A stretch of DNA of 64,000 bases, taken from contig OY997594.1 in NCBI GenBank assembly GCA_963921825.1, forward strand, positions 7,383,001 through 7,447,000. The letters run 5' to 3'. Positions 4,645 to 26,345 of the stretch are shown here, piece by piece (position 1 is the stretch's first letter; each line of letters starts with the position of its first letter). The stretch is from Erodium maritimum (lineage: Eukaryota > Streptophyta > Magnoliopsida > Geraniales > Geraniaceae). Below the pieces are notes generated by a model. That model saw only the letters and a list, made by a program, of their open reading frames with translations, had not been told where the DNA came from and did not search any database. The position numbers and the translations under genes were made by a program.

Positions 4645-4664
4645 TTTTTTTGATCCGCAAAGAA
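4645..4664 (-). mobile_element. Detached 3' tail of the split LINE
   Basis: On the minus strand this reads TTCTTTGCGGATCAAAAAAA, a typical plant LINE end with poly-A. Joining it across the MULE to 14430 restores the continuous LINE end. The 10 bases next to the MULE (CCGCAAAGAA, 4655-4664) are the target duplication. Confidence 0.75.
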
Positions 4665-4740
4665 GAGATGAAATCCGCTAGAAACTGTGCTTAACGTGCG
4701 AACCGATCCGTGCCGTCCAGCAACGATGATCAACCGCCCA
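4665..4740 (+). repeat. MULE left terminal inverted repeat
   Basis: Starts GAGATGAAATCCGCTAGAAA and is matched imperfectly by the right end, with indels between shared blocks. Confidence 0.8.
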
Positions 4741-5347
4741 GATCAACTGTCTCCCACCTTCCTAAATTTCGTGTTTCTTATACTACCAAGGGTAAGATAG
4801 TAAATTCCCTTCCGAGCTTCTTCTTCCTCTTAGACGCACAAAACTTGAGCTGATTTCACAGTCTTCTCTCAACAAAACACCGACAAATCAACAGCTCTCC
4901 ATTCCTTTGATCGATTATCGTAGAGTCAAATTCGAGCATTACAATCTGAAGATTCAGCCGAAATTCATAAATCGTGCTCTGTTTTTGCTTCTACACTGTA
5001 AATCGCAAATTCAAGCCTTTTTTATCGCCTGATCAAGCTCAAAAACAGGTGAGAATTATCTAATAACTTGCTTCTATCATCAGTCAATCACATTCAGGAT
5101 CGAAAAAACAGAAGTTATATGTCGATTTCAAAAAAATCTGAAAACGTGCTCTGTTCTAGGGTTTATCAAGTATGTTGTTAAGATTTATCGACTATTTGAT
5201 GTGAATTAACCTCGTTTCTCAACTAATCAAGCGTAAACAAGTACATTTTGAGATATACTCCAACAATCGTTGTTTATATCTCAAATTCGATAAGCAGAAT
5301 TCAAATTCTGATAACTCTTGTTCTTTGATCATTTGTTATCGGTTGCG

Positions 5348-5905
5348 TTGATAAAAGTACACTTTGTTGTTGATAAATCTAACGTCAAGCATTGATAAAT
5401 TGTCTGTGACTAGACGTTCCTGAGTTGATGCTCGTTCAAGGAACAAGTCGTGTTACTGGAATGTATTGATAAATCTTTATACTGACATTGATAAATCGTT
5501 CTAGTAGTCTTGATAAATCTTCCAACTAGTCTTGATAAATCTTCCAACTAGTCTTGATAAATATTTCTTGATGTGTTGATAAATCTTTCTTCCAGTGTTA
5601 ATAAATCTTTCTGCTAGTGTTGATAAATGTATGTTTTAGAGTTGACAAACTAACTGTCTGTGACCTTATCATTCCTGAGTAGATGATCGTTGTAGTCACA
5701 CGTCGTGTAGTAGTTAGCATTGATAAAATTGCATTTTATTGTTGGTAAAAGTTACGTTTATAATTGATAAATGACTCTGACCAGGTCCCTTCCTCAGTTG
5801 ATAAGTCCAACAATTGTGTTGATAAAACCGGCTTACAGTGTTGATAAATCTTTCATGTTATATTGATAAATCTCTCTGACCAGGTCTCTTCCTGAGTTGG
5901 TACCA
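5348..5905 (+). repeat. Phased TTGATAAA array, transposase leader
   Basis: Motif starts fall at 5348, 5370, 5392; then 5466, 5488, 5510, 5532, 5554, 5576, 5598, 5620, 5642; then 5720, 5742, 5764; then 5798, 5819, 5841, 5863. Nearly all steps are exactly 22 bp. The core is (G/T)TTGATAAATC; the spacer bases vary freely. The array ends just upstream of the transposase start codon at 5905. Confidence 0.95.
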
Positions 5906-6750
5906 TGGATCTTGACGATGCTTGCTTTGGATTCGAGTATGAAGATGTGGATCCTGTTCCATAACTTGTGGTCACAAAATTGGTGTGGATTCCTGAATGT
6001 AGTGTTGATTTAAAGCCTCGAAAGGATATGAAGTTTGGTTCCTTTGAGGAAGGTATAATTTTCTACCAAACTTATGCATTAAATAGTGGGTTTGGGACAC
6101 GTCGAGGGCCAGAGAAGAAGAAACCAAGGAGTAACACAATCAATTTTAAATACATGTATTGTGCAAGAGAAGGAGAAGCATTTGTCGATGATACCGAAGG
6201 AGAGACCAACGACAAGTTAAGAAAAAGATATAGAATGTCTACACGGACAGGATGTATGGCGAGGATTTCTTTGAAACACACTGAAGATGGTTATACGGTG
6301 TATGAGTTTAGAGAAGACCACAATCACCCACTGCAATGTAAGCGTGATTTGCACTATCTGAGATCAAACAGGGATTTAACACCAAGGCATAAGCAATTTA
6401 TCATAGATTGCTCAAAGGTTAATTTGGGAGCTACAAAAGCATTTAACCTTTACAGCCAAATAGTTGGAGGTCCTACCAACGTAGGAGCGTGTCCAACTGA
6501 TTTCAGAAACTTCCAGCGGGATCTGAAAGTTTACATTGGAGAGCATGACGCTCAAACTACCATTGACCAATTCCACACTAAAGAAGACTATTGTAGTGAC
6601 TTCTTCTTTGAGTACAAAGTTGATGCTGGTGATCGGCTAAGCCACCTTTTCTGGGCTGATTCGATGTCGAGGAAGAATTATGAGCTATTTGGTGATACGG
6701 TGTCGTTCGATTCAACCTATAGATCAAACAGGTAAAGCATGTCGTATAAC

Positions 6751-6825
6751 TTGACAATCTGCATCAGTTTGATTGATAAACTCTGCATGTAAGGTTGATA
6801 AATTGTGTAATCACTGTTGATAATT
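6751..6825 (+). repeat. Phased TTGATAAA motifs, transposase intron 1
   Basis: Motif starts at 6751 (TTGACAATC), 6773, 6795 and 6817, all 22 bp apart, beginning 19 bp after the splice donor. Confidence 0.9.
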
Positions 6826-7540
6826 TATTTATCCTTGCTGCTTATGTTTTTGTTTGTTTAGGTACATGATGGTCTTTGCACCATTCACTGGAGTAGACAA
6901 CCACAACAAGTCGATCATCTTTGGTGCTGCTTTGTTAGCCAAAGAGGATGCCGAATCTTTTGTTTGGTTATTTTCCAAACATTCCTCAAAGCTATGAAGA
7001 TGAAAGAGCCAAACTGTTTCATAACAGATCAAGACCTAGCGATGAGAAAGGTTTTTGAGGAAGTGTTCACACAAAGTAGGCATCGACTATGTATGTGGCA
7101 CATAATGCAGAAGCTTCCTTCTAAGGTAAGTCCTGTTTTGAATTTATACATTTGTTAGTGATTTATGCTTGATAAAAGTTAACGTTATGAGATAAATAAT
7201 TTGTTCGGTTGATTGTGAGACAAATTTATACATTATTATTGCAGGTTCCTCACAATGTATACCATGAGACAAATTTCAAGAACAAATTTAAAGCATTGGT
7301 GTGGACTGTGGAGTAACTACACTGAAACAGAGGAGTTTGAGCTGACTTGGAAGGCTTTGATGGATGAATTCCAACTACACGATCACACTTGGTTGTCTTC
7401 TATGTTTGATATACGGGATAGATGGATCCCTGCATATTTTAGGGGGCTAAAAATGGGACTATTCCTTAGAACAACATCAAGATCAGAGATTGAGAACAGT
7501 GCATTTGGTCAATTCACTAACAAGTACCTTTATTTTGTGA

Positions 7541-7716
7541 TTGATAAATGTTTCAATGAGGACTGATAAATTCTGCACTCTTTACTGATAAATTCTGCAC
7601 TCTTGACTGATAAAAATATGTGTGGAGACAGTAGTGTTTTCTGATGATATAATTTATTCTGTTGTGATAAATGTTTCAAGAAGAACTGATAAATTGTGCA
7701 GTCTTGACTGATAAAA
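7541..7716 (+). repeat. Phased TTGATAAA motifs, transposase intron 3
   Basis: Motifs at 7541, 7563, 7585 and 7607, then 7664, 7686 and 7708, with 22-bp steps inside each run. They fill the intron between 7523 and 7732. A looser set in intron 2 (near 7169-7215) steps by about 20 bp. Confidence 0.9.
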
Positions 7717-8602
7717 AATGTTGTTGTTCAGGTCCCTTACCTTGGTTGAATTCATATGGCGCTTCGATACAGTCGTTGAAGGTCAGAAACAGAAACAATT
7801 ACAGCTGGACTTCCAATCAAGCACCTTAGCTCCCAATTTCATGGTATTATCTGAAATTGAAAAGGACGCTTGGAGGATTTACAGCCGCTCAATCTTTGAC
7901 ATCATAAAGAAAAGTGTTGTGGGAACAACCTCCAGGTGTGGGATCAAAACCTGTGTTGAAAGGGATGGAAATAAGATATATAACATCGCAAACAAACATG
8001 GGGACAAGACGTTTGTTGTTGTGCAAAGCTTACCTGGGAACCATTGCACATGCACTTGCATGAGATTTGAAGGATTTGACATCCCTTGTATGCATATTTT
8101 CTTGGCTTTGCAAGCATCTATGGTTGATCAAATACCGGAGAGCTTGATCACGCAAAGATGGACAAAGGATGTACGCAAGAATGCTGAAAACTCTGCAGAT
8201 TCTGAAGAATTACAACCATCTGCCTACGGTGAGTGTAAGAAATTTATTGCAGATATATGCTCGATGCTTCAATCTTGTGCCCTCCATCCAGCAGTGAATG
8301 CTGGAAAGTTGAAGGAATTTGCAGAACAAGTAGAGGAATTCAAGAACAAGTTGAATGATGAGGAAGCTGATGATTTTGCATCAAGCACAACACAAGAACT
8401 TCAGACTTTGACAGGTCTTTCTACACCTTCACAGGTTATTGTCAAGCTACCACATATATCAAGGACAAAAGGTTGTGGAAAGAGAATTCAATCAGGGATG
8501 GAAAGGTCTATTGAAGAAGCTAAGAAAAGGAAGAGGACTTGCAAAGGATGTGGTCAACCAGGTCATGACATCAGAAACTGCTCCAAAAAAAAGATGGTTG
8601 CA

Positions 8603-9006
8603 GTGATAAAACATTGAACTAGTGTTGATAAATGTAGCACTTAACGTTGATAAATACTTTCCACCTATTACTGACTCTATGAATTACAAGGTCATTCAGT
8701 ACTGATAAAACATTGAATTAGGCTTGATAAAGTCTTCAAGTAAAGTTGATAAATCTGTTTTTCAATATTTCTAAGTCAGATTTTTAAGGTGCTTCAACAT
8801 TCAATATGTACACAAATTTAGGGGTGATAAAAATTGCAACAAATGTTGATAAAAACTTAGTACATCGCTGATAAAGGACCTACCAAAATACTTACATGTT
8901 GCTAGTAAAAATAACCATCCACAACAGTGATAAACCATGGACACAGAATTGATAAAACTCTTCTATATATGTGATAAACCTGGTACATATAACAGATTGA
9001 TAAACC
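8603..9006 (+). repeat. Phased TTGATAAA array between the two MULE genes
   Basis: Runs at 8603, 8625, 8647; 8702, 8724, 8746; 8824, 8846, 8868; and 8927, 8949, 8971, each with exact 22-bp steps, then 8997. The array covers the transposase end and the convergent 3' intergenic region. Confidence 0.92.
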
Positions 9007-10349
9007 CTGTCATTTCACATGCTTAAAAACATCTATGCACATTTAGTATCATCTGTTTACCAAAAAATGCTAGAGTCATAAGAAGTTTGCAACTGATTAC
9101 ATCATTTTTACCAAAAAAAAAGTAACTAAACAAAAGACCTAATGCTTTATACGGGTGCCTTGTCCAACAGTCCTATATAGTTCTTTCTAAAGAAGCAGGA
9201 GATAGCTCATCCCCTCCACTTGGTTGATTCCTCTGACAGTAGCTCCTCAGCTTTACCTCGTTCATGATCTTTGCAGTGTTGCTTGGATACGTGCACAATT
9301 GCATGGCATATCGATGCCTCATCTTCAATAATTGATCAGCCTATATAAACAACAACAAAAAACCTCCCAAATTAGTTAAACTACACACATAAAAACTCAT
9401 GACTTAAAAAGAACTGCACAAGATAAAAATGTTAGCTTACATTGTTCTTTGACATAGGAAAACCCCAAGTACTTCCGGATTGACCCATGTACCTCTCCAT
9501 GTGAAACATGTAGTAGATGCCACAGTCAACCACATTATCACTGCTGCTCCAATCTAGCTTCAAACCCTTTCCACGTCCATTTCTGATTCTCACAGAGAGT
9601 GTAGCATCAAACCTTTCAAGGAACATCGAAAACCTATTCCTCTGTCAATGATTAACAGAAAATACATACATTAGAAACACAAAAATGTACATAAAATTAA
9701 TAACTAAAATCGCAAATAAAAACTTACCAAATTGGTGATTCTGTTCTCGTACTTGCCTCTAAAGTTAGTCCCCTGCAAGTTATCGAGGACAGCCACTATG
9801 TGTTTCTTCATGTCGAAACATACCAAGTAATAGTGAGACTTTGCATGGACTGGGAAAAACACCTGCCATAGAAGAACAAAGAAGACAAACATAGTTACAC
9901 AAAACACAAACCTAAATACTATAAAAATGATACAGAAGCCTGAAAATGTGTAGGAGATCCTTACCAAATCCACAGTAGTGAGATCAACATCCGTGTACAA
10001 CTGCAACTCGCTTTCAAGATCATCACGCCAATTTTCTTTGTTTAGATCAATCAAGGATGTCTAATGATAAAAGCATGTAAAATGATAAACACATTCCCAC
10101 CTTAATATTATTAAAAAAAAGACAATTCACATGAATAAAAAATACTCACGCTTGCAACTGTTGTGAAGAAAAACCTTGAAGGTTCATCCGGTGTTCTCTT
10201 CTCCTCCATCAAATTCATGTAAGCTACCTATGCATTAATAACACCCACCATTACTTCTGTCCCAACTTTCATCGACTGTAAATCATTTTTCATCACACCT
10301 ATACTGCCATCCATGATTTCAAAAACCATTTTCCTTCAACAAAACACAA

Positions 10350-10660
10350 CACATCAGTGGTGATAAACTTATATAACATTGTTGATAAACCTAGCAGATA
10401 GAGTTGATAAAAATGCAAACCATGGTTAACAGATGCAAAACAATGTTTGCTAATGCTATACACATCAGTGGTGATAAACCTATATAACATTGTTGATAAA
10501 CCTAGCAGATAGAGTTGATAAAAATGTAAACCATGGTTAACAGATGCAAAACAATGTTTGCTAATGCTATACACATCAGTAGTGATAAACCTATATAACA
10601 TTGTTGATAAACCTAGCAGATAGAGTTGATAAAAATGTAAAGACAGGGTTAGGACAAATA
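10350..10660 (+). repeat. Tandem 111-112 bp repeat, about 2.6 copies
   Basis: Units start at 10350, 10462 and 10573 and are almost identical (ACATCAGTGGTGATAAAC...). Each unit carries three recognisable TTGATAAA motifs (for example 10359, 10382 and 10404; 10471, 10493 and 10515) plus two degenerate ones, so the unit is roughly five 22-bp steps. It lies in an intron of the protease gene. Confidence 0.92.
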
Positions 10661-11878
10661 CCACTGGTCTTCTCTATCGTCGTTCATCAGCCATTCCATC
10701 CATAGTTGCTCCTCTTTTGTCAATGGAGCATTCAAATCTGTTTTCCTAGTTGATGGCCCTGCCTCTATAATTTTCTTCGTGGTTGGCTTTTTACTACTGC
10801 TTCTCGATTTCTTCTTTTCTTCTTTCTCTTTGCCCTTCTCTGTCCTCACAACATCTTCACATGCTTCCCTCCCTACATCAACATCTCCACATGCTTGCCT
10901 CCCTATGTCAGCAACATCTTCAAGACCGAGACTGAATGTAGGCATCCCATGACCTTGTCGCTCGCCTACATTGGTCTCCTTGGCATCCGCCACAGACGTG
11001 ATATTATCATCACCTTTTCCTTGTTCGACAACATTGTTGTCTTCAGCTTCTTCAACAACATTATCACATTTCCCTTGATCACCAGCATCATCGTCTTTTC
11101 CTCCCACAACATCACCTTCTGCCTCAACAACACAATCTCTTCCTAACTCCACTACCGGTTCAACCCCATCCTCGTGCTCCTTAGCAACCATATTATCCCT
11201 TCCAAGCCTAACACAACCAGCTTCTGCCTTCTCTCTCTCTACTACACAATCTTGGCCATCGTTCTCCTTACCACTACCCTGGCTATTCACTTTAGTTGCA
11301 GCATTAAATGCTGCATCAGTAGCCTTTATCACAACGGGATGCCTCCACCAACGATCTTGTGATGACTCTTCGATGTTGTGCTCTGATGGGCCCCCCACCA
11401 TCTCATTCATAGCATCGTGAAGCCTCCTGACAGTAATATTGTCAGAAAACTTCGAAATGGTTGTTCTGATGCTGTCCTTAAAAAGGACATAGCTATTAGC
11501 GAGATGCACTGCTTGTTCTGCCAGCTTTACGATGAATTCCTACACATTACAAAAATACAAAAAATGTTACAGAAAAACACAAAAACTTATGACTTTAACA
11601 CAAAAAAACTTTGAATATACCTCTTGTCCCAGATCATCAATGACATCTTCAACTTCCTCAGGTACGTATGGGTCTTCCTCTATGTAACCTTCCCCGAATG
11701 ACCCGTATTGCTTTTCAAGATACTCCCGATCTTTCAAGTCATCAGATGTCCACCCAATGAGAGAAGGATGGGCCCTCTCCACAACTCTCTTCTCGAGCAC
11801 AACCCGATCAACATAGTATAACTGCATAACACCAAACAAAACAAATTAGAAACTGCTGACAGTGAATATAAATTTGTT

Positions 11879-11930
11879 TATCAACACTACATGCATAAAT
11901 TATCAACATTATTCAATACTTTTATCAATG
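11879..11930 (-). repeat. Phased motif run in reversed orientation
   Basis: TTTATCAAC, the reverse complement of the motif, occurs with its TCA at 11881, 11903 and 11925, again 22 bp apart, in the intron between exons 2 and 3 of the protease gene. It is the only clear reversed cluster in the element. Confidence 0.85.
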
Positions 11931-13190
11931 CAACAAGGATGATAAACAATTGAACTAACCATGAGAAATGTCAAAGGCCCAGCATAGAACTTCTCTCCTG
12001 TGGCTGACTTATCCCATTTATTTTTGCTTTCAATCAGACCGTCAATGACAAAGTCACACCAGTCATATTCTGGGATGGCGTTTACTTTGTCCATTGCGTA
12101 CAACACAGAATTATTCACATAGCTCCCGCTCGTCCCTTCAACCATCACAGTTGAGAATAACACCGCAAAATTCCACTTGAACATTTCTTCATCTCCTCTT
12201 TGTTTCTTCATCACTTCAATCAGAGAAGAGATACTCACTCCAAAAACTGATTGAACATTAAACTGCTGAAGCCAACGTGCAACAAGTCGACAAAAATCAG
12301 ACCTCTCTGGGATGATCGCTCGTCCGCCACAGGGGATCCCTAATGTTTCCTTAACATTTTCGCTGCTGATGTGTAAAAGTCGGTCTTGCGATAGCTTGAT
12401 ACAAAGACTCCCGGTATGGATATTACTCACAAGCCAAAACCCAAGGGCTTGTGGTAAGTCCTTCACCTCCAGCAGCAAGATACTCCCAAACCCCATGTCC
12501 TGTACTGCCTTCTTCTGTAAATCACTCATTCCCTCCATGAAATTGACCAAGGACTTAGGTGATGTCCTGACCTTCAACCTCCGAAGACCATCACCTCTTA
12601 CACGAACCTGATCCTTCTTGGTCCTCTTTGGAATTGGATTTGCAAGAGCATTAGCCTCCGACTGTGGTCTCTTCTTCACAGGACCTACGAATGCTTCCAT
12701 AGATGAGCTTTGTCCTGCATCCTTTGTCGGATTAGGAGCAGGAGCAGCAGGAGCTGCAGACGCAGCAGAAACAGATGAGCTATTTTCTGCTACATCATTT
12801 GCTGGGTTCAGAGAATGAGCTATGACTGATCCCTCTGCTGGATTACGAGGAGCGGGCATCAACAACTTTTGTCCTGCATCCTTTGTTGGATTAGGAACAG
12901 CAGTCGCGGATGAGCTCTCTCCTCCTACAACATTGGCAGGATTCGGAGGGACTTTGATCTTGATAACAGGACGTTTCTTAGCTTTGCCTGCACAACACAT
13001 TCAAAAACACAAAAAATCACCAATCATACTAAAAGCATATAATAAAAACAAAGTTTAAATTATTCTAAACCTTTTACCTGGGATCAAGTCCTTCAGGAGA
13101 AGTGAATCCTCATTTGATCTAGTCTTCACCATTTCTCTGAAACACAGACACTTATACATAAGAGTGTGAGCAAATCAAAGCTGAGTGTGT

Positions 13191-13486
13191 TTGATAAACC
13201 TAGATCACAGTGTTGATAAAAGCACAGGACAGTTGTGATAAACACACATAATAAGACTGATAAACACAGATCACAGTGTTGATAAAAGTACAATACAGTT
13301 GTGATAAACACAGATACTAAGACTGATAAACCTACATCATAGAGCTGATAAAAAAACAATGCAATGTTGATAAAAATGAATAAAAATGTTGATAACTCAC
13401 GGAGTTGATACATACTCAATACTAAAAATATAAGTGATAAATCTATCCCACAGAGTTGATAAATGTGAATGTCAGTGTCGCTAAAA
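13191..13486 (+). repeat. Phased TTGATAAA array upstream of protease gene
   Basis: Ten consecutive motifs at 13191, 13213, 13235, 13257, 13279, 13301, 13323, 13345, 13367 and 13389, each exactly 22 bp apart; further copies at 13405, 13434, 13456 and a degenerate one at 13478. It occupies the 5' leader and promoter side of the minus-strand protease gene, mirroring the array in front of the transposase. Confidence 0.95.
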
Positions 13487-13499
13487 CACAGATACACCA

Positions 13500-14344
13500 C
13501 CTCTCACACGTTCAACCCTCCCCAATTCAAACTCCAAATGCATACCAAGCTTCACTCCAGTCATGAACAGATTCTTTTACTCAAACAGAAAACACATTGT
13601 CATGCTTACCAATCGTGTACAACCAGAAAACACATTATCTGAGATCAAACTTCAAAATCAGTACATGCTCACAAACATATCATCAAAAATTCAAAATCAA
13701 CACGCATGCAAATGAAAATGAGACAATCAAACGCAGAATACAAGAGATTTACAAGTTTTAGACAAACAAAATGCACTATCAAACACAAAACCTAGATCAA
13801 ACATCAACACACATGCAGTTAAGTTGAAAAATAACTAAAAACAGAGCACAAAGCTTTCCAAACCCTGAATATATGTTCCTCCCTCCGGAAATCGCATACA
13901 AAAACGCTTTGAAGTAACAAAATCAACTATCGAACTCAAAAACTAGGTCAAAATCGACTGGATTTCAAAAATAAATCCCTAAATCAGTGAAGCTTATCAC
14001 AACAGAAAATGATCAACACAATGAGAATCGGACACCAAACCTCAATATGATGTGTAGAACTCAACCGGAACTTTGGATTTTGCTTGAGATTGACGAAAAA
14101 CACGAAGAAAACCGTACAAAAATGACGACCGAGCGAGAAGAAGTAGCTGAGAGCGAGAGTGAGTGCGTGCGTGAGAGTTGTGTCTGATAGATCGGAACAG
14201 TCGCGTAGTTGAGAAGAACAAAATGAAATTACGATTTAACCCTCACAAAACTAAGGAATATTACAAAAATGCCACCGAATTGTGCTGTTTTTTTTTCTAA
14301 CAGAAGTCAACAAGTCAACATCCTACTAATAATCTCAGCCATCC
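13500..14344. other. MULE subterminal region, promoter side of protease gene
   Basis: About 850 bp with no supported gene. It is rich in repeated CAAACxCAAAA and TCAAAATCAxCxC phrases and presumably holds the promoter of the minus-strand protease gene. Confidence 0.45.
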
Positions 14345-14419
14345 ATTTGTGAAATGAATGGCTTGGATTGGTTCACACAGTTTTTAGGTTAAGCTATGGT
14401 TTCTATTTGATTTTTTCTC
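14345..14419 (-). repeat. MULE right terminal inverted repeat
   Basis: Read on the minus strand it begins GAGAAAAAATCAAATAGAAA and aligns in blocks with the left terminus. Confidence 0.8.
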
Positions 14420-14934
14420 CCGCAAAGAATACGATATTATTATTAAGTAAAAGTAGAAGCAGAATACAAAAGCCCACCAAGGCGAACAAGAAACATAGAT
14501 GATACAACTAAGAGAAAAAGAACAAAGGAGCCAGTTTCCAACGAACCATGTCAGATTCCGAGACTTCGAGAGATTTCAGGCTTAAGAGAGAGAAGCTGAA
14601 GAGTTGGATCCTCAAGAGTACCAAATCAACCGGCTCAAGGCAATTCGAGAAAACCGCAGAGTTGCGAGAAAGCCAGATAAACCAGAAACCAATAAACAGA
14701 ACCTTCAACCAGAAAAGCTTTGCTAAACCTTTAGGCACAAAACCGCCCCATTGATGAATCAAAGCTAACGGAGAGGACGAGAGGCAACCTTGGAGATTCC
14801 ACCAATTGAGAACCGGATAGAGTTTTCGTAACAAGATAGTAAACGGTCTGATTCATTGGTTGTTTTACAAACTCGAGTTGTACATACTCAGCAGTAGTCA
14901 AAATAAATAACCATGATGTCACTATCTTCCTCAA
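14420..14934 (-). mobile_element. 5'-truncated LINE, C-terminal fragment
   Basis: The minus strand encodes a fragment (14834-14508) resembling the zf-RVT / C-terminal end of plant L1-type ORF2: WNLQGCLSSSPLALIHQWGG followed by LAKLFWLKVLFIGFWFIWLSRN. The 3' side runs into TTAATAATAATATCGTATTC, whose continuation with poly-A is found across the MULE at 4645-4664. The reverse transcriptase core is absent. The 5' limit and its target duplication were not found. Confidence 0.65.
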
Positions 14935-16081: not shown

Positions 16082-19000
16082 TGTTATAAAACGATAGGCA
16101 ATAAAACGAAATAGAGATCAAAACCAAAAACGGAGAACACAACGATATAACGTGGAAAACCCCTCCAAACAACGAGAGGAAAAAACCACGGGCGCCAACC
16201 AGCAAAAGTTCACTATAGGGAGAATGTTTACACAACGCCGGGGATTTACACTGATTCAACTTATCCCTCATGGAAGCTTACAGGTGGTATTTATAGTAGT
16301 GATGTAGAGATAGTTCATACAAAATAGAGAAATAATAATCTATACACAATTAAGACCCAGTTTGGGAAACAGGGCATAAATTCCCTAAATTGATTACTTG
16401 CTAATCAAGCCAAGACAATTCCCTAAATTAGTTGCTTGGTAACCAAGCCACAAAATAGCTTGAATTTGGATCAAATTTCAACAAACTCCACCTTGAGACA
16501 AATTCCTCATTGTAGCATAAAGCGGTAGACATCTCCCTGAACAAACAAAGAAAAAACTTTCGGCGCCAAACAGCCACTAGGGCTAAATAGTTATACCAAC
16601 TAAGCTTGAGCAAAACTCAAACTTAGCAACAGGAACTGACTTCATCATATCACCAGGACTATCATAATCATGTTTTACCTGTTCAACACAACTCAAAGCA
16701 TAATGAACAACGTTACATTGTTCAATTGAACGAGGGCGAGGACCTTTGTTTCTCCTCGGTCTATCAACAACAATAGAGTTATTTGTTTGCTGCAAAACAG
16801 GTGGTGTAAGCTGAACACCAATGTCATCATTTTCATTATTTTCAACAACCTCATTTACTTTGTCGTTCAGGTGCTCCACCTGCACGCTTATCCTCCGTTG
16901 CTTATCATCAGAAAATTTAGTAACATCAAGAACATCAGAGGCATCTATAGAGGAACTATCATTGAACATGACAACCTCATTAAAAACAACATTCCGGCTC
17001 AACAAAATTCTCTTAGTTTCAGGATTCCATAACTTATATGCCTTTACTCCTGAGCCATAACCAAGAAACACACACTTGACAACTCTAGGCTCTAACTTTC
17101 CATTATCAACGTGTGCATAAGCAATGCAACCAAAAATTCTCAATAGTGAATAATCAGCAGGTGAACCAGACCATACCTCAATGGGAGTTTTCTTATCAAG
17201 TGGAATGCTTGGAGATCTGTTTATTAAGTAGCAGGCAGTGGAGGCTGCTTCAGCCCAAAAACGTCTGCTCATACGAGCATTAGAAAGCATGCACCGAGCC
17301 TTAGAGATGATGGTTCGGTTCATGCGCTCAGCCACACCATTCTGTTGAGGCGTGGACAGGATGGTATGGTGTCTTACAATGCCTTCGTTGCTACAATAGT
17401 TGTCAAAATCATTTAAACAAAACTCCATGCCATTGTCAGTACAAAGCACTTTTACCTTTTTCTCGGTTTGCTTCTCCACCATAACTCTCCACTTCTTAAA
17501 AGCATCAAACACATCAGATTTATGTTTTAGAAAATAAGGCCACACTTTTCTAGAGTAATCATCAATAATAGTAAGCATGTAATTTGCACCACCAAGAGAA
17601 GTTTTACGGGAAGGACCCCAAACATCAGCATGCACATAATCTAATATCCCTTTAGTGGTATGAACGGAAGCATTGAATTTAACTCTCTTGTGCTTACCAA
17701 AAATGCAGTGCTCATAAAACTCCAACTTACTCATGTTGCAGCCATCAAGTAAATCTCTCTTGATCAACTCTGTCATGCCTTGTTCACTCATATGTCCAAG
17801 GCGCTTGTGCCACAAATTAGTTTTACTAGGTTCATCAGAAATAACAGCAGCAGTAGCAGAACCATTTAAAGTGCTACCTCTAAGAGCATATAATCTTGTA
17901 GAGTTCATATCACCTATCATGTGAACGAAAGAGCCTTTTGATACCTTTAGAATTTTCTGTGAGCCGGAGTACTTGTACCCTTCATCGTCAAGAGTGCTGA
18001 GAGAGATGAGGTTTCTCGCCATGGTTGGTATGTGTCTCACATCTGTCAGTGTGCGTACCATGCCGTCATGCATCTTGAACTTAACGGAGCCTATGCCCAC
18101 AATCTCACGTGGGTTGTCATCTCCCATACGCACCACATCTCCATTCTGCAAAGACTTATAAGAACTGAACCAGTCTTTGTTACAGCAGATATGAAATGAA
18201 CAGGCAGTATCAAGAATCCATTCATCATAAGCAGAAACACAGCCAACAAACACAACTAGGCAATAACTATCAGAATTATCGTTGGAAACAACGGAGGCCT
18301 TACCATCACCATCAGAATTGTTTTTCGGTTTGTACGAACCGTTTCTTTTCTCCTTATTCTGAAGCTTATAACAATCTTCAATGGTGTGATTTGTTTTCTT
18401 ACAATACTTGCAGAACTTGTCGCCTCCTTTGGACTTAGAACGACCTCTCCCGTTATTGCTCTTATTTTTATTTCCATAGTTGTTGTTCCTCTGCTCGGTC
18501 CTCCCACGTACCTGCAGAGCTTCTCCCTTGGAGGATGACGATCCTTCTCCTTGTACCATAAGTTTCATCTTTTCCCTCTGTTGAAGGGCCTCATATACTT
18601 CCGCAAGAGTTAGTTCATCGCGGCTCAATAATATGGTATCTCGGAAATTTGCAAAAGAAGTAGGCAATGAACATAAGAGTAGTAGACCTAGATCTTCATC
18701 ATCATACTTTACCTCCATGGACTGCAAATCAGAAACGATCTCCTTAAAGACCGCTAGGTGATCGAGTAGAGAACCACCATCTTGCAGCTTGTGCGTGAAC
18801 AACTTCATCTTCACGTGAAACTTACTGGTCAGATCCTTGGACATGCAAATCGATTCCAGTTTGAGCCAAAGTGCTGCTGCAGTTTTCTCCAGCAGTACTT
18901 CCTGCAAAATATTATTTGATAGATGAAGATGAATCAGAGATAGAGCTTTACGATCCTTACGCTTCTCCTCATCGGTCCACGTCTTCGGATCCTTCTTGTT

Positions 19001-19567
19001 GAATCCATCTAGCGCATCATCAAGGTCAGGATGAGCTAGAACGGCCCGCATCTTTACTTGCCATGGAGAAAATCGTGTGGTGTAGTCCAGCAACGGTAGA
19101 TCGAATTTCAATGATGCCATATCGTCAGAAAACCTAGATTGAACAACCAGGCTCTGATACCACTTGTTATAAAACGATAGGCAATAAAACGAAATAGAGA
19201 TCAAAACCAAAAACGGAGAACACAACGATATAACGTGGAAAACCCCTCCAAACAACGGAGAGGAAAAAACCACGGGCGCCAACCAGCAAAAGTTCACTAT
19301 AGGGAGAATGTTTACACAACGCCGGGGATTTACACTGATTCAACTTATCCCTCATGGAAGCTTACAGGTGGTATTTATAGGAGTGGTGTAGAGATAGTTC
19401 ATACAAAATAGGGAAATAAAAATCTCTATACAATTAAGACCCAGTTTGGGAAACAGGGCATAAATTCCATAAATTGATTACTTGCTAATCAAGCCAAGAC
19501 AATTCCCTAAATTAGTTGCTTGGTAACCAAGCCACAAAATAGCTTGAATTTGGATCAAATTTCAACA
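16082..19567 (-). mobile_element. Copia LTR retrotransposon fossil (short, broken)
   Basis: LTRs are 16082-16483 and 19165-19567 (about 402 bp, TG...CA), flanked by the 5-bp duplication AGATG at 16077-16081 and 19568-19572. The element reads on the minus strand: the primer-binding site (TGGTATCAGAGCC, tRNA-Met type) adjoins the right LTR and a purine-rich tract adjoins the left. Parts recognised in one long reading frame: UBN2-type gag, CCHC knuckle (CKYCKKTNHTIEDC), aspartic protease (LDTACSFH), GAG-pre-integrase and integrase core. No further pol parts were recognised, and 3.5 kb is short for Copia, so it looks broken and non-autonomous. The LTRs differ by about 2 per cent by eye, which points to a young insertion (order of a million years or less under usual plant rates). 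Confidence 0.95.
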
Positions 19568-24545: not shown

Positions 24546-24711
24546 GTTTTTTTGATGCTTATATGTATACTCTGAAATTACAAAAAGACCACAGTGATAT
24601 TGATTACTCGTAATACTAGTCTTGGTAGAAGAGTTATAAATTAAACCCTAAATTGATTTGTGCTTATAAATAGATAGAGTAGAGGAAGAGGAAGCGATCG
24701 ATATAGAGAAG

Positions 24712-26345
24712 ATGTCAAAAAAGAGAGCAAGAGAGATTGAAGTACCCGTCGATGCGTTGGAAGATATTCTGGTGTTGCTACCTCCACAACCGTTGCTCAG
24801 ATTCACTTGCATCAACAAAGCTTGGTGCTCTCTGATCCGAAGCCCTAGCTTCATCTCCAAGCTTCTCCTCAACGGCTCCTCCGGTTCAGACCACGCCCTC
24901 TTAAACCTCAGATCCGAGACATCTCCGGGCCACAAGTTCTCGTTGCTTGATTCCCCCGGAGACCTCGGAAACGTGAGCAACCTCGAGGACCCGTGTATTG
25001 TCGGTCATTGCCACGGCCTGATTTGTTTCATGAGTGGTGTCACAGCAAACCCTTATACAAAGGACAAGGATATAAAGGATTTCGATTTCAGAGGACCTAA
25101 TGTAGCTCTACATCTATGGAATCCAGCCCTCCGACAACACAAGATCCTTCCCGAATCGAGCATCCTCCTCCCCCGACCTGGAACCCGGCTCGGAGGGTAC
25201 AGACGGGTCGGGTTGGGGTTCGGACACGACCCTAGGTCTCAGGACTACAAGGTTGTCCGATGCGCTTTCTATCCCATATTCCTTGAGGGCATACACTATC
25301 CCGGTGAGTACGAGGTGGAAGCCGAGGTGTATTCACTGAGGACCGATTCGTGGCGACCGGTGGCCAGCACTCAGCTTGTCTTGAAATCCCTGCCGGACAC
25401 GAGCCGCGGAGGGGTTTATTTGGGTGGCTTCTGCTACTGGATGTGTTATAAATCTTTTCGTGGATCGATGATCATCTCATACGACATGTCCAACGAGGTC
25501 TTCAGACAATTTCACGTGCCTGAACAAATGTATAGTTGTCGTCCAGTCCCAGACAAAGTCTGTCTCGACTTTAAGCTTCTCGTGTGGAAGGGTTCGTTAG
25601 CTATTGTTCTGTTTCCGACTCCAACCCGCCCTTTTTTATGTGCCGTGACACGCGTAAGGTAAGTCACTAACCATCTTTTCTTTCGTATTTATGTTTTTAT
25701 ACCTAGCTTTAATATCATAAAGCACCACACAAGTATACACATTTTTCAAATAACACACTAAGCTATGATTTTTTCATGTGACACACATATATACCAACAA
25801 ATTATCAAACTTTGTTGATACATAGGTGTGCCACATGAAAAAATCGTTGATACATAAGTGTGCCACATGAAAAAAATCATAATTTAGTGTGTTATTTGAA
25901 AAACGTGTATACTTGTGTGGTGCTTTATGATATTAACTCTTATTCCTAATGAAACTTCTATTGAGCTAGATCTGATCCGATTGAGATTTCATTAAGGGTC
26001 AAACATGCAAGATAAAAGAATTTATCATTTCATAAATTATCGCAGTTAAAATTCGTTGATATCTGGTCATTGGAGATTGATATTGACGGTCGAGTAACCC
26101 CGAAGGAACATCAAGATTTATATTTGGATATTGACGCTCCATTACGACTAATGGGTGTGGAATGTTTGTGCAACGATGACTTGATTATCAGATGCCACGA
26201 CAAGAGTCTCCATATATCAGAAACAAGATTCAAAGCTTATCGTATATCAACAGGGCAACTCAGAAACATTTCTTTGGTTGGAACCTATTCTCCTAATACA
26301 CGAATGGTAGGCTACACATCAAGTTTAATTTCTCTCCTCACCTGA
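24712..26345 (+). CDS. F-box protein with F-box-associated domain
   Basis: Predicted substrate receptor of an SCF ubiquitin ligase; target unknown. Exon 1 runs from the ATG at 24712 to 25653 and exon 2 from 26046 to the TGA at 26343-26345; this phase-compatible junction gives CAVTR/LKFVDIW and about 413 residues, usual for the family (a donor 4 bp later would break the frame). The N-terminal F-box is VPVDALEDILVLLPPQPLLR with FTCINKAWCSLIRSPSFI (residues about 10-50). The FBA-type domain follows, with LWNPALRQHKILPES, GLGFGHDPRSQDYKVVR, FCYWM and VWKGSLAIV. The intron holds a foldback MITE. Family assignment is strong; the exact ortholog is not resolvable by eye. Confidence 0.9.
25709..25936. 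mobile_element. Foldback MITE in F-box intron
   Basis: Inverted ends TTAATATCATAAAGCACCAC and its complement at the right end match perfectly, and the arms continue inward through CAAGTATACAC and AAATAACACACTAA. Short loop with two copies of TGTGCCACATGAAAAAA. No coding capacity; a different family from the GGGTTAATT MITEs. Confidence 0.85.

Follow-up and report, generated by a model that had tools for sequence, protein, structure and literature searches.

A Mutator-like element (MULE) of 9,755 bp occupies positions 4665-14419 of a 64-kb window of the Erodium maritimum genome (contig OY997594.1 of assembly GCA_963921825.1, forward-strand positions 7,383,001 to 7,447,000), and its non-coding DNA carries arrays of the motif TGATAAA repeated at exact steps of 22 bp. 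All coordinates refer to this window, the whole stretch of DNA that was analyzed. The element is bracketed by a perfect 10-bp target-site duplication, CCGCAAAGAA, at 4655-4664 and 14420-14429, and these 10 identical bases could also represent a 9-bp duplication, as in VANDAL elements, plus one chance base. The terminal inverted repeats (TIRs) at 4665-4685 (+) and 14399-14419 (-) are short and degenerate, since 16 of the 21 outermost bases agree with the reverse complement of the opposite end and little agreement is found further in. The analysis rests on this single copy, and the spliced models of its two genes are our own, based on reading frames and splice signals.

The transposase gene lies on the + strand and was modelled with four exons. 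Exon 1 (5905-6731) encodes a FAR1 DNA-binding domain (PF03101, E=5e-16 on 5965-6732) and contains an in-frame stop at 5962-5964, while exon 2 (6862-7125) encodes the MULE domain with an internal frame break, PF10551 matching two pieces of it at E=5e-6 (27.4 bits, cut-off 27.6) and 7e-12. Exon 3 (7245-7521) was placed by reading frames and has a frame break near its start; its 71-amino-acid piece gave no Pfam match. Exon 4 (7732-8617) encodes a SWIM zinc finger (PF04434, E=4e-4, 20.2 bits against a cut-off of 19.6) and a CCHC knuckle below the cut-off (zf-CCHC_2, E=0.09). In our model the transposase is thus broken by one in-frame stop and two frame breaks. FAR1 was the sole Pfam domain in exon 1 at E values up to 0.1, no mudrA-type domain being found, and a PDB sequence search with this exon gave no match. 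Judged by its domains, the set FAR1-MULE-SWIM would place the transposase as Jittery- or Hop-like.

A second gene lies antisense to the transposase, on the - strand. Its 5' part (10652-13132) comprises the exons 13132-13078, 12987-11960, 11821-11621 and 11539-10652, which were joined by splice sites and reading frame into an open spliced frame of 724 amino acids. An approximate exon at 10146-10330 (-), drawn from reading frames, probably encodes the N-terminal portion of an Ulp1 domain and has an in-frame stop at 10228-10230; two short pieces of it had no Pfam match. Four further exons in our model (9173-10060, -) encode an Ulp1/C48 peptidase domain (PF02902, E=1.6e-5 for the 199 amino acids obtained after splicing). 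The gene is broken, with one in-frame stop between the 724-amino-acid part and the Ulp1 domain. The 724-amino-acid part produced Pfam rows at chance level only (a GH84 helix, E=0.26; KAP, E=0.23). The protease part had weak SENP/Ulp1 matches in a PDB sequence search (best E=0.2), next to a ribosomal chain at E=1.2, and a match of the N-terminal part to AcrIIIA2 (E=0.57) in the same type of search was judged to be chance. The predicted structure of a 363-amino-acid antisense frame, which extends slightly into introns at both ends, had a mean predicted local distance difference test (pLDDT) score of 40 without an alignment. No protein relatives of the element were confirmed in a viral contig collection.

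The + strand of the element contains 61 copies of TGATAAA, 58 of them preceded by G, T or C, and the rest of the window only six exact forward copies. The sequence-only reading, a model's earlier note on this DNA, had counted more than 60 copies and proposed shuffled sequence as a check: after dinucleotide shuffling, the 14 non-coding segments contained a mean of 1.63 copies (maximum 7 in 500 shuffles), and none of the 500 contained a pair at 22 bp. When the 60 non-coding sites were re-placed at random inside their own segments, the mean number of pairs at exactly 22 bp was 0.95 (maximum 5 in 2000 randomizations), compared with 38 observed among the 61 sites. Outside the element, the 60 forward sites with at most one mismatch in the rest of the window included no 22-bp pair. 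The two long runs noted earlier were both recovered, nine sites at 5466-5642 (seven of them exact 7-mers) and ten sites at 13191-13389 (nine exact). The avoidance of exons was likewise borne out: a single exact site of the 61 is exonic, at 8604, where it overlaps the final codons of exon 4 of the transposase gene, and exonic sites with at most one mismatch (5+5 in 5,216 bp) are about as dense as those beyond the element (60+57 in 54,216 bp).

The exact forward sites are distributed over the leader of the transposase gene (15), its three introns (2, 1 and 7), the end of exon 4 (1), the convergent intergenic region (12), three introns of the antisense gene (2, 9 and 1) and the region upstream of that gene (11). 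The motif had been said to fill all non-coding parts, which overstates its spread: of the 14 non-coding segments, 5 are free of sites on either strand, all of them introns of 81-101 bp, and no exact forward site occurs in the first 684 or the last 956 bp. The site-bearing introns are mostly longer (119-321 bp, one of 85 bp), which is the expectation if arrays inflate introns.

On the + strand, the leader arrays (5348-5870) consist of runs of 3, 9, 3 and 3 sites at 22-bp steps and hold 15 exact 7-mers. Intron 1 contains four in-phase sites (6751-6824), two of them exact, intron 2 a lone site (7169-7176), and intron 3 runs of four and three sites (7541-7715). The convergent intergenic arrays (8603-9004) are made up of four triplets plus a lone site, and their first site overlaps the stop region of the transposase. 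In an 85-bp intron of the antisense gene, two exact sites and a weak one (10064-10115) are spaced by 18 and 26 bp, off phase but adding up to 44 bp. Upstream of the antisense-gene ATG, runs of ten and three sites (13191-13485) show a 66-bp superperiod. Orientation is nearly always +, and the two small inverted arrays (five sites, counted at up to one mismatch) still keep the 22-bp step: a pair in the leader with one exact core and one mismatch (5162-5191, -; sites at 5162 and 5184), and a triplet in an antisense-gene intron (11877-11928, -; sites at 11877, 11899 and 11921).

Sixteen runs of at least three in-phase sites were found, and 12 of them have exactly three sites, three of these triplets being copies of one 111-bp unit. 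Run lengths, but not the counts of 61 and 38, include nine degenerate in-phase sites added at up to two mismatches (about 1.4 expected by chance over 86 slots), the weakest at 10108 and 11961. Phase is local to the runs, as 0 of the 14 between-run gaps shorter than 300 bp is a multiple of 22. Between 5348 and 13485, eight of these 14 gaps equal a multiple of 11 to within 1 bp, where 3.8 would be expected (P=0.018 in a post hoc test, with two gaps being copies of each other); we note this weak hint of a half-step phase between runs without claiming it.

Two further observations concern the array DNA. The leader stretch CTCTGACCAGGTCYCTTCCTSAGTTG is present twice, at 5775-5800 and at 5874-5899, the second copy directly before the ATG; a leader intron may have had its 3' splice site duplicated here. 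The ratio of observed to expected CpG is low, at 0 to 0.27, in the arrays at 13185-13490, 8600-9010, 7535-7730 and 10350-10645; it is 0.77 in the leader array, 1.2 and 0.82 at the two ends, and 0 to 0.83 in exons.

A longer word, approximately YAGNRTTGATAAA, is conserved around the core. Among the 45 of the 61 sites with non-redundant flanks, the bases ahead of the core are biased to Y at -5 (37/45, P=1.5e-6), A at -4 (29, P=3e-4), G at -3 (22, P=8e-8), R at -1 (38, P=8e-6) and T at 0 (28, P=6e-6), suggesting a putative recognition sequence of 13 bases followed by a 9-base linker. With 10.5 bp per helical turn, each 22-bp step would add a drift of about 34 degrees, so that the sites of a triplet would lie on roughly one face of the DNA, while a ten-site run would nearly circle the helix. 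A branch-point or other splicing role for the motif was ruled out by reasoning, because a single DNA orientation is held across genes on both strands. Plant GATA and I-box sites resemble the core TGATAA, and bulk recruitment of a host GATA factor or a GATAA-binding MYB transcription factor for expression of the element could draw on this likeness. However, the 13-base consensus reaches past GATA, and a promoter needs neither a strict head-to-tail phase of 22 bp nor sites in late introns and between convergent genes, so that we consider such a host factor quite unlikely.

The arrays have grown by tandem duplication. Three 111-bp copies with one triplet each lie at 10349-10641 (+) in a 321-bp segment that is an intron in our model (Tandem Repeats Finder: period 111, 2.6 copies, 98% match), 66-bp tandem units occur at 5510-5649 and 13192-13374, and 22-bp units are found as well. 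The inverted triplet at 11877-11928 and the triplet at 8597-8654 show 72% complementarity, so that triplets seem to travel as modules. Neutral minisatellite growth, in which slippage multiplies 22-bp units and exons are avoided since 22 is not divisible by three, would build on this real duplication at 22, 66 and 111 bp and would produce the avoidance of exons without selection on the motif. Yet duplication alone predicts even decay along the unit. In 51 pairs of slot neighbours, the seven core positions were identical in 353 of 357 comparisons (99%), whereas 14 spacer positions agreed in 326 of 714 (46%), the variable first T being omitted from both, and 24 of the 26 slots picked solely for the strict sites that flank them hold the exact 7-mer. 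Since A and T in the spacers also decayed (identity between neighbours 0.49 and 0.53), deamination of methylated C is not enough by itself to account for the contrast between core and spacer. The motif word is therefore maintained, though the arrays also expand by duplication.

Whether the step is maintained as well, as the sequence-only reading had proposed in stating that spacing itself seems selected, depends on the assumed rate of insertions and deletions (indels). Where the nearest exact sites are 12-32 bp apart, 38 of 40 steps equal 22 bp (34 of 36 once the recent 111-bp copies are left out), and the spacers have drifted: in the 34 adjacent pairs without recent 111-bp copies they are 42% identical, 24 pairs lying below 50%. 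Adjacent spacers differ by about 1.2 substitutions per site, and about 8 substitutions per spacer were used in the indel calculation, which treats spacers as independent and models substitution in a simple way. At a neutral indel/substitution ratio of 0.02 the unchanged steps have P=0.048 (38/40) and 0.075 (34/36), so that at a ratio of about 0.02 or less they fit neutrality, while at 0.10 the values fall to 9e-12 and 2e-10. Sites with at most one mismatch make a weaker case for a constant step: 45 of 51 steps of up to 40 bp equal 22 bp, with P=0.05 at a ratio of 0.03 and 6e-11 at 0.10. Indel/substitution ratios in Arabidopsis are about 0.1-0.17. Constant spacing would thus need no selection if the ratio were at most about 0.02-0.03, but at 0.10 its probability is of the order of 1e-10. 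Selection on the 22-bp step is likely, depending on this rate, and neutral minisatellite growth as the whole explanation appears highly improbable.

The sequence-only reading had compared the element with the VANDAL MULEs of Arabidopsis, whose VANC proteins recognize short motifs. VANC21 binds introns, intergenic and terminal non-coding regions of its elements, and its motifs are dense, lie in the same orientation and grow by tandem repetition, motif density deciding localization (PMC5735166). RNA-directed DNA methylation targets these same non-coding regions, and VANDAL ends are described as short and degenerate (PMC10398659). The element shares with VANDAL21/Hiun and VANDAL6 its short-motif arrays in intron, intergenic and leader DNA, their mostly single orientation, density and tandem growth, the degenerate terminal repeats and the presence of an accessory gene; the comparison does not extend to DUF1985 or DUF287, the motif or the FAR1-type transposase. 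Ulp1-domain genes are found in other relatives too. A 2026 review places Ulp1 in some VANC genes and states that Ulp1-carrying VANDALs recognize their own motifs (PMC13317346), while another source reports Ulp1 antisense to the transposase in KI-MULEs and Ulp1 also in Jittery-like MULEs (PMC2528002). KI-MULEs (Kaonashi, Ulp1-carrying non-TIR MULEs) thus share the antisense Ulp1-domain gene, but their transposase is of the mudrA type and not FAR1. Jittery-group MULEs share the order of N-terminal FAR1, MULE and C-terminal SWIM, a set also present in some Hop elements, and Jittery-like families of grapevine and melon carry Ulp1 downstream of the transposase in some cases. The descriptions of the Jittery group, in their available parts, mention no phased motif arrays, and the group table of PMC6446971 gives one open reading frame and target duplications of 8 bp or unstated, compared with 10 bp here.

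Our best reading is that of a VANC-like platform outside VANDAL, in a MULE of a different lineage and with a new motif. We consider it somewhat probable that the arrays serve as a self-recognition, anti-silencing platform bound by a protein that the element itself encodes, probably the antisense product. With its long N-terminal region and Ulp1 protease domain, this product would be the most likely binder of the YAGNRTTGATAAA sites, because Ulp1 occurs in some VANC genes and in Jittery-like MULEs and lies antisense in KI-MULEs. Bound molecules would follow one another head to tail every 22 bp, or roughly two turns of the helix, and neighbours would touch each other on nearly one face of the DNA, a putative cooperative mode of binding. 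Site density and phase could then confer specificity for copies of the element's own family, and the bound protein may strip silencing marks from the non-coding DNA of the element, as VANC does on VANDAL. Arrays would expand as units of 22, 66 and ~100 bp are duplicated in tandem, after which selection would preserve word and step while the spacers drift.

The earlier proposal had left open whether such a platform serves anti-silencing or transposition, and anti-silencing appears to fit better, given that no site comes closer than about 500 bp to either end. The same distribution bears on a second candidate, binding of the arrays by the FAR1 transposase for transposition or for control of its own transcription, comparable to TNPA in En/Spm. 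This candidate has a DNA-binding domain in its FAR1 module, and arrays are present in the leaders of both genes. TNPA sites in En/Spm, however, are subterminal, whereas exact forward sites are absent here from the outermost 684 and 956 bp and also occur in introns and between the convergent genes. We therefore regard binding by the transposase as unlikely, and return to the antisense product as the favoured binder.

Several points weigh against an anti-silencing platform of the VANC kind. Only one copy was seen, and both of its genes are broken. DUF1985, DUF287 and PMD gave no Pfam match in the antisense protein, and VANC proteins of VANDAL elements carry DUF1985 or DUF287; HMMER filters drop most matches above an E value of about 0.1, and distant DUF1985 or DUF287 homology may have escaped this search. 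The transposase is of the FAR1 type, which the table of PMC6446971 lists for Jittery, half of a plant-containing Hop subgroup and a few non-plant groups but not for VANDAL. VANC21 also occupies terminal non-coding regions, while the ends of this element are site-free. The motif differs from those of VANDAL21 (YAGTATTAY) and VANDAL6 (AGTTGTCC/AGTTGTAC), and the two VANC6 motifs showed no significant likeness to it in column shuffles (p=0.72 and 0.58). The VANC21 motif itself was not found in the element, and a VANC6 motif was found once (9995, reverse, exonic). A similarity by eye between YAGNRTTG within our word and YAGTATTA of VANC21 was discarded after log-odds comparison with column shuffles (p=0.43).

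Motif and spacing had also been called undescribed. In a literature search combining TTGATAAA, MULE and transposon, the terms occurred together only in a Shigella paper among the best 20 of 2,636 matches; for VANC terms, the phrase helical periodicity appeared only in a paper on G-protein-coupled receptors, and the matches listed for Mutator-like elements included no mention of 22 bp. A study by Sasaki et al. (2022, EMBO J) is nevertheless reported to trace the action of VANC motifs to their sequence, density and helical periodicity, and to count DUF1985, DUF287 and Ulp1 among the domains of VANC. If so, phasing as such is known, and the novelty may lie in the motif, in its rigidity and in the FAR1-type setting.

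The DNA pattern of the arrays was also found in 8 stretches of a viral collection and at least 119 of a prokaryotic one, of which a single Pediococcus contig (L012) was inspected. Its positions 1080-1404 contain 14.8 perfect head-to-tail repeats of 22 bp, each with TTGATAAA on the reverse strand, adjoining a gene for a Rep_3 initiator. These plasmid iterons are an analogy only: they belong to an unrelated replication system and have identical spacers, no homology is implied, and the shared core word and step are presumably convergent. Elsewhere in the window, a reading frame of a Copia-type long terminal repeat retrotransposon (gag, Pol_BBD, integrase) lies on the - strand at 16586-19339, about 2 kb past the element, and a gene with an F-box domain (PF00646) at 24670-25659.

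Few transposon proteins are known to undo host silencing with sequence specificity, and VANC proteins belong to these. It is a tentative suggestion, and one we hold with some doubt, that the element represents a phased, self-encoded anti-silencing platform outside VANDAL, combining a FAR1-type MULE, an Ulp1 antisense protein, a new 13-base word and a two-turn step. If true, sequence-specific anti-silencing would have arisen more than once in MULEs or would have moved between them as a module of protein and sites. A rigidly phased array in a second MULE lineage would reveal how protein-site pairs evolve, and it could provide an ordered natural substrate on which to gauge the effects of motif, density and helical phase on specificity, as well as a second motif for targeted epigenome editing.

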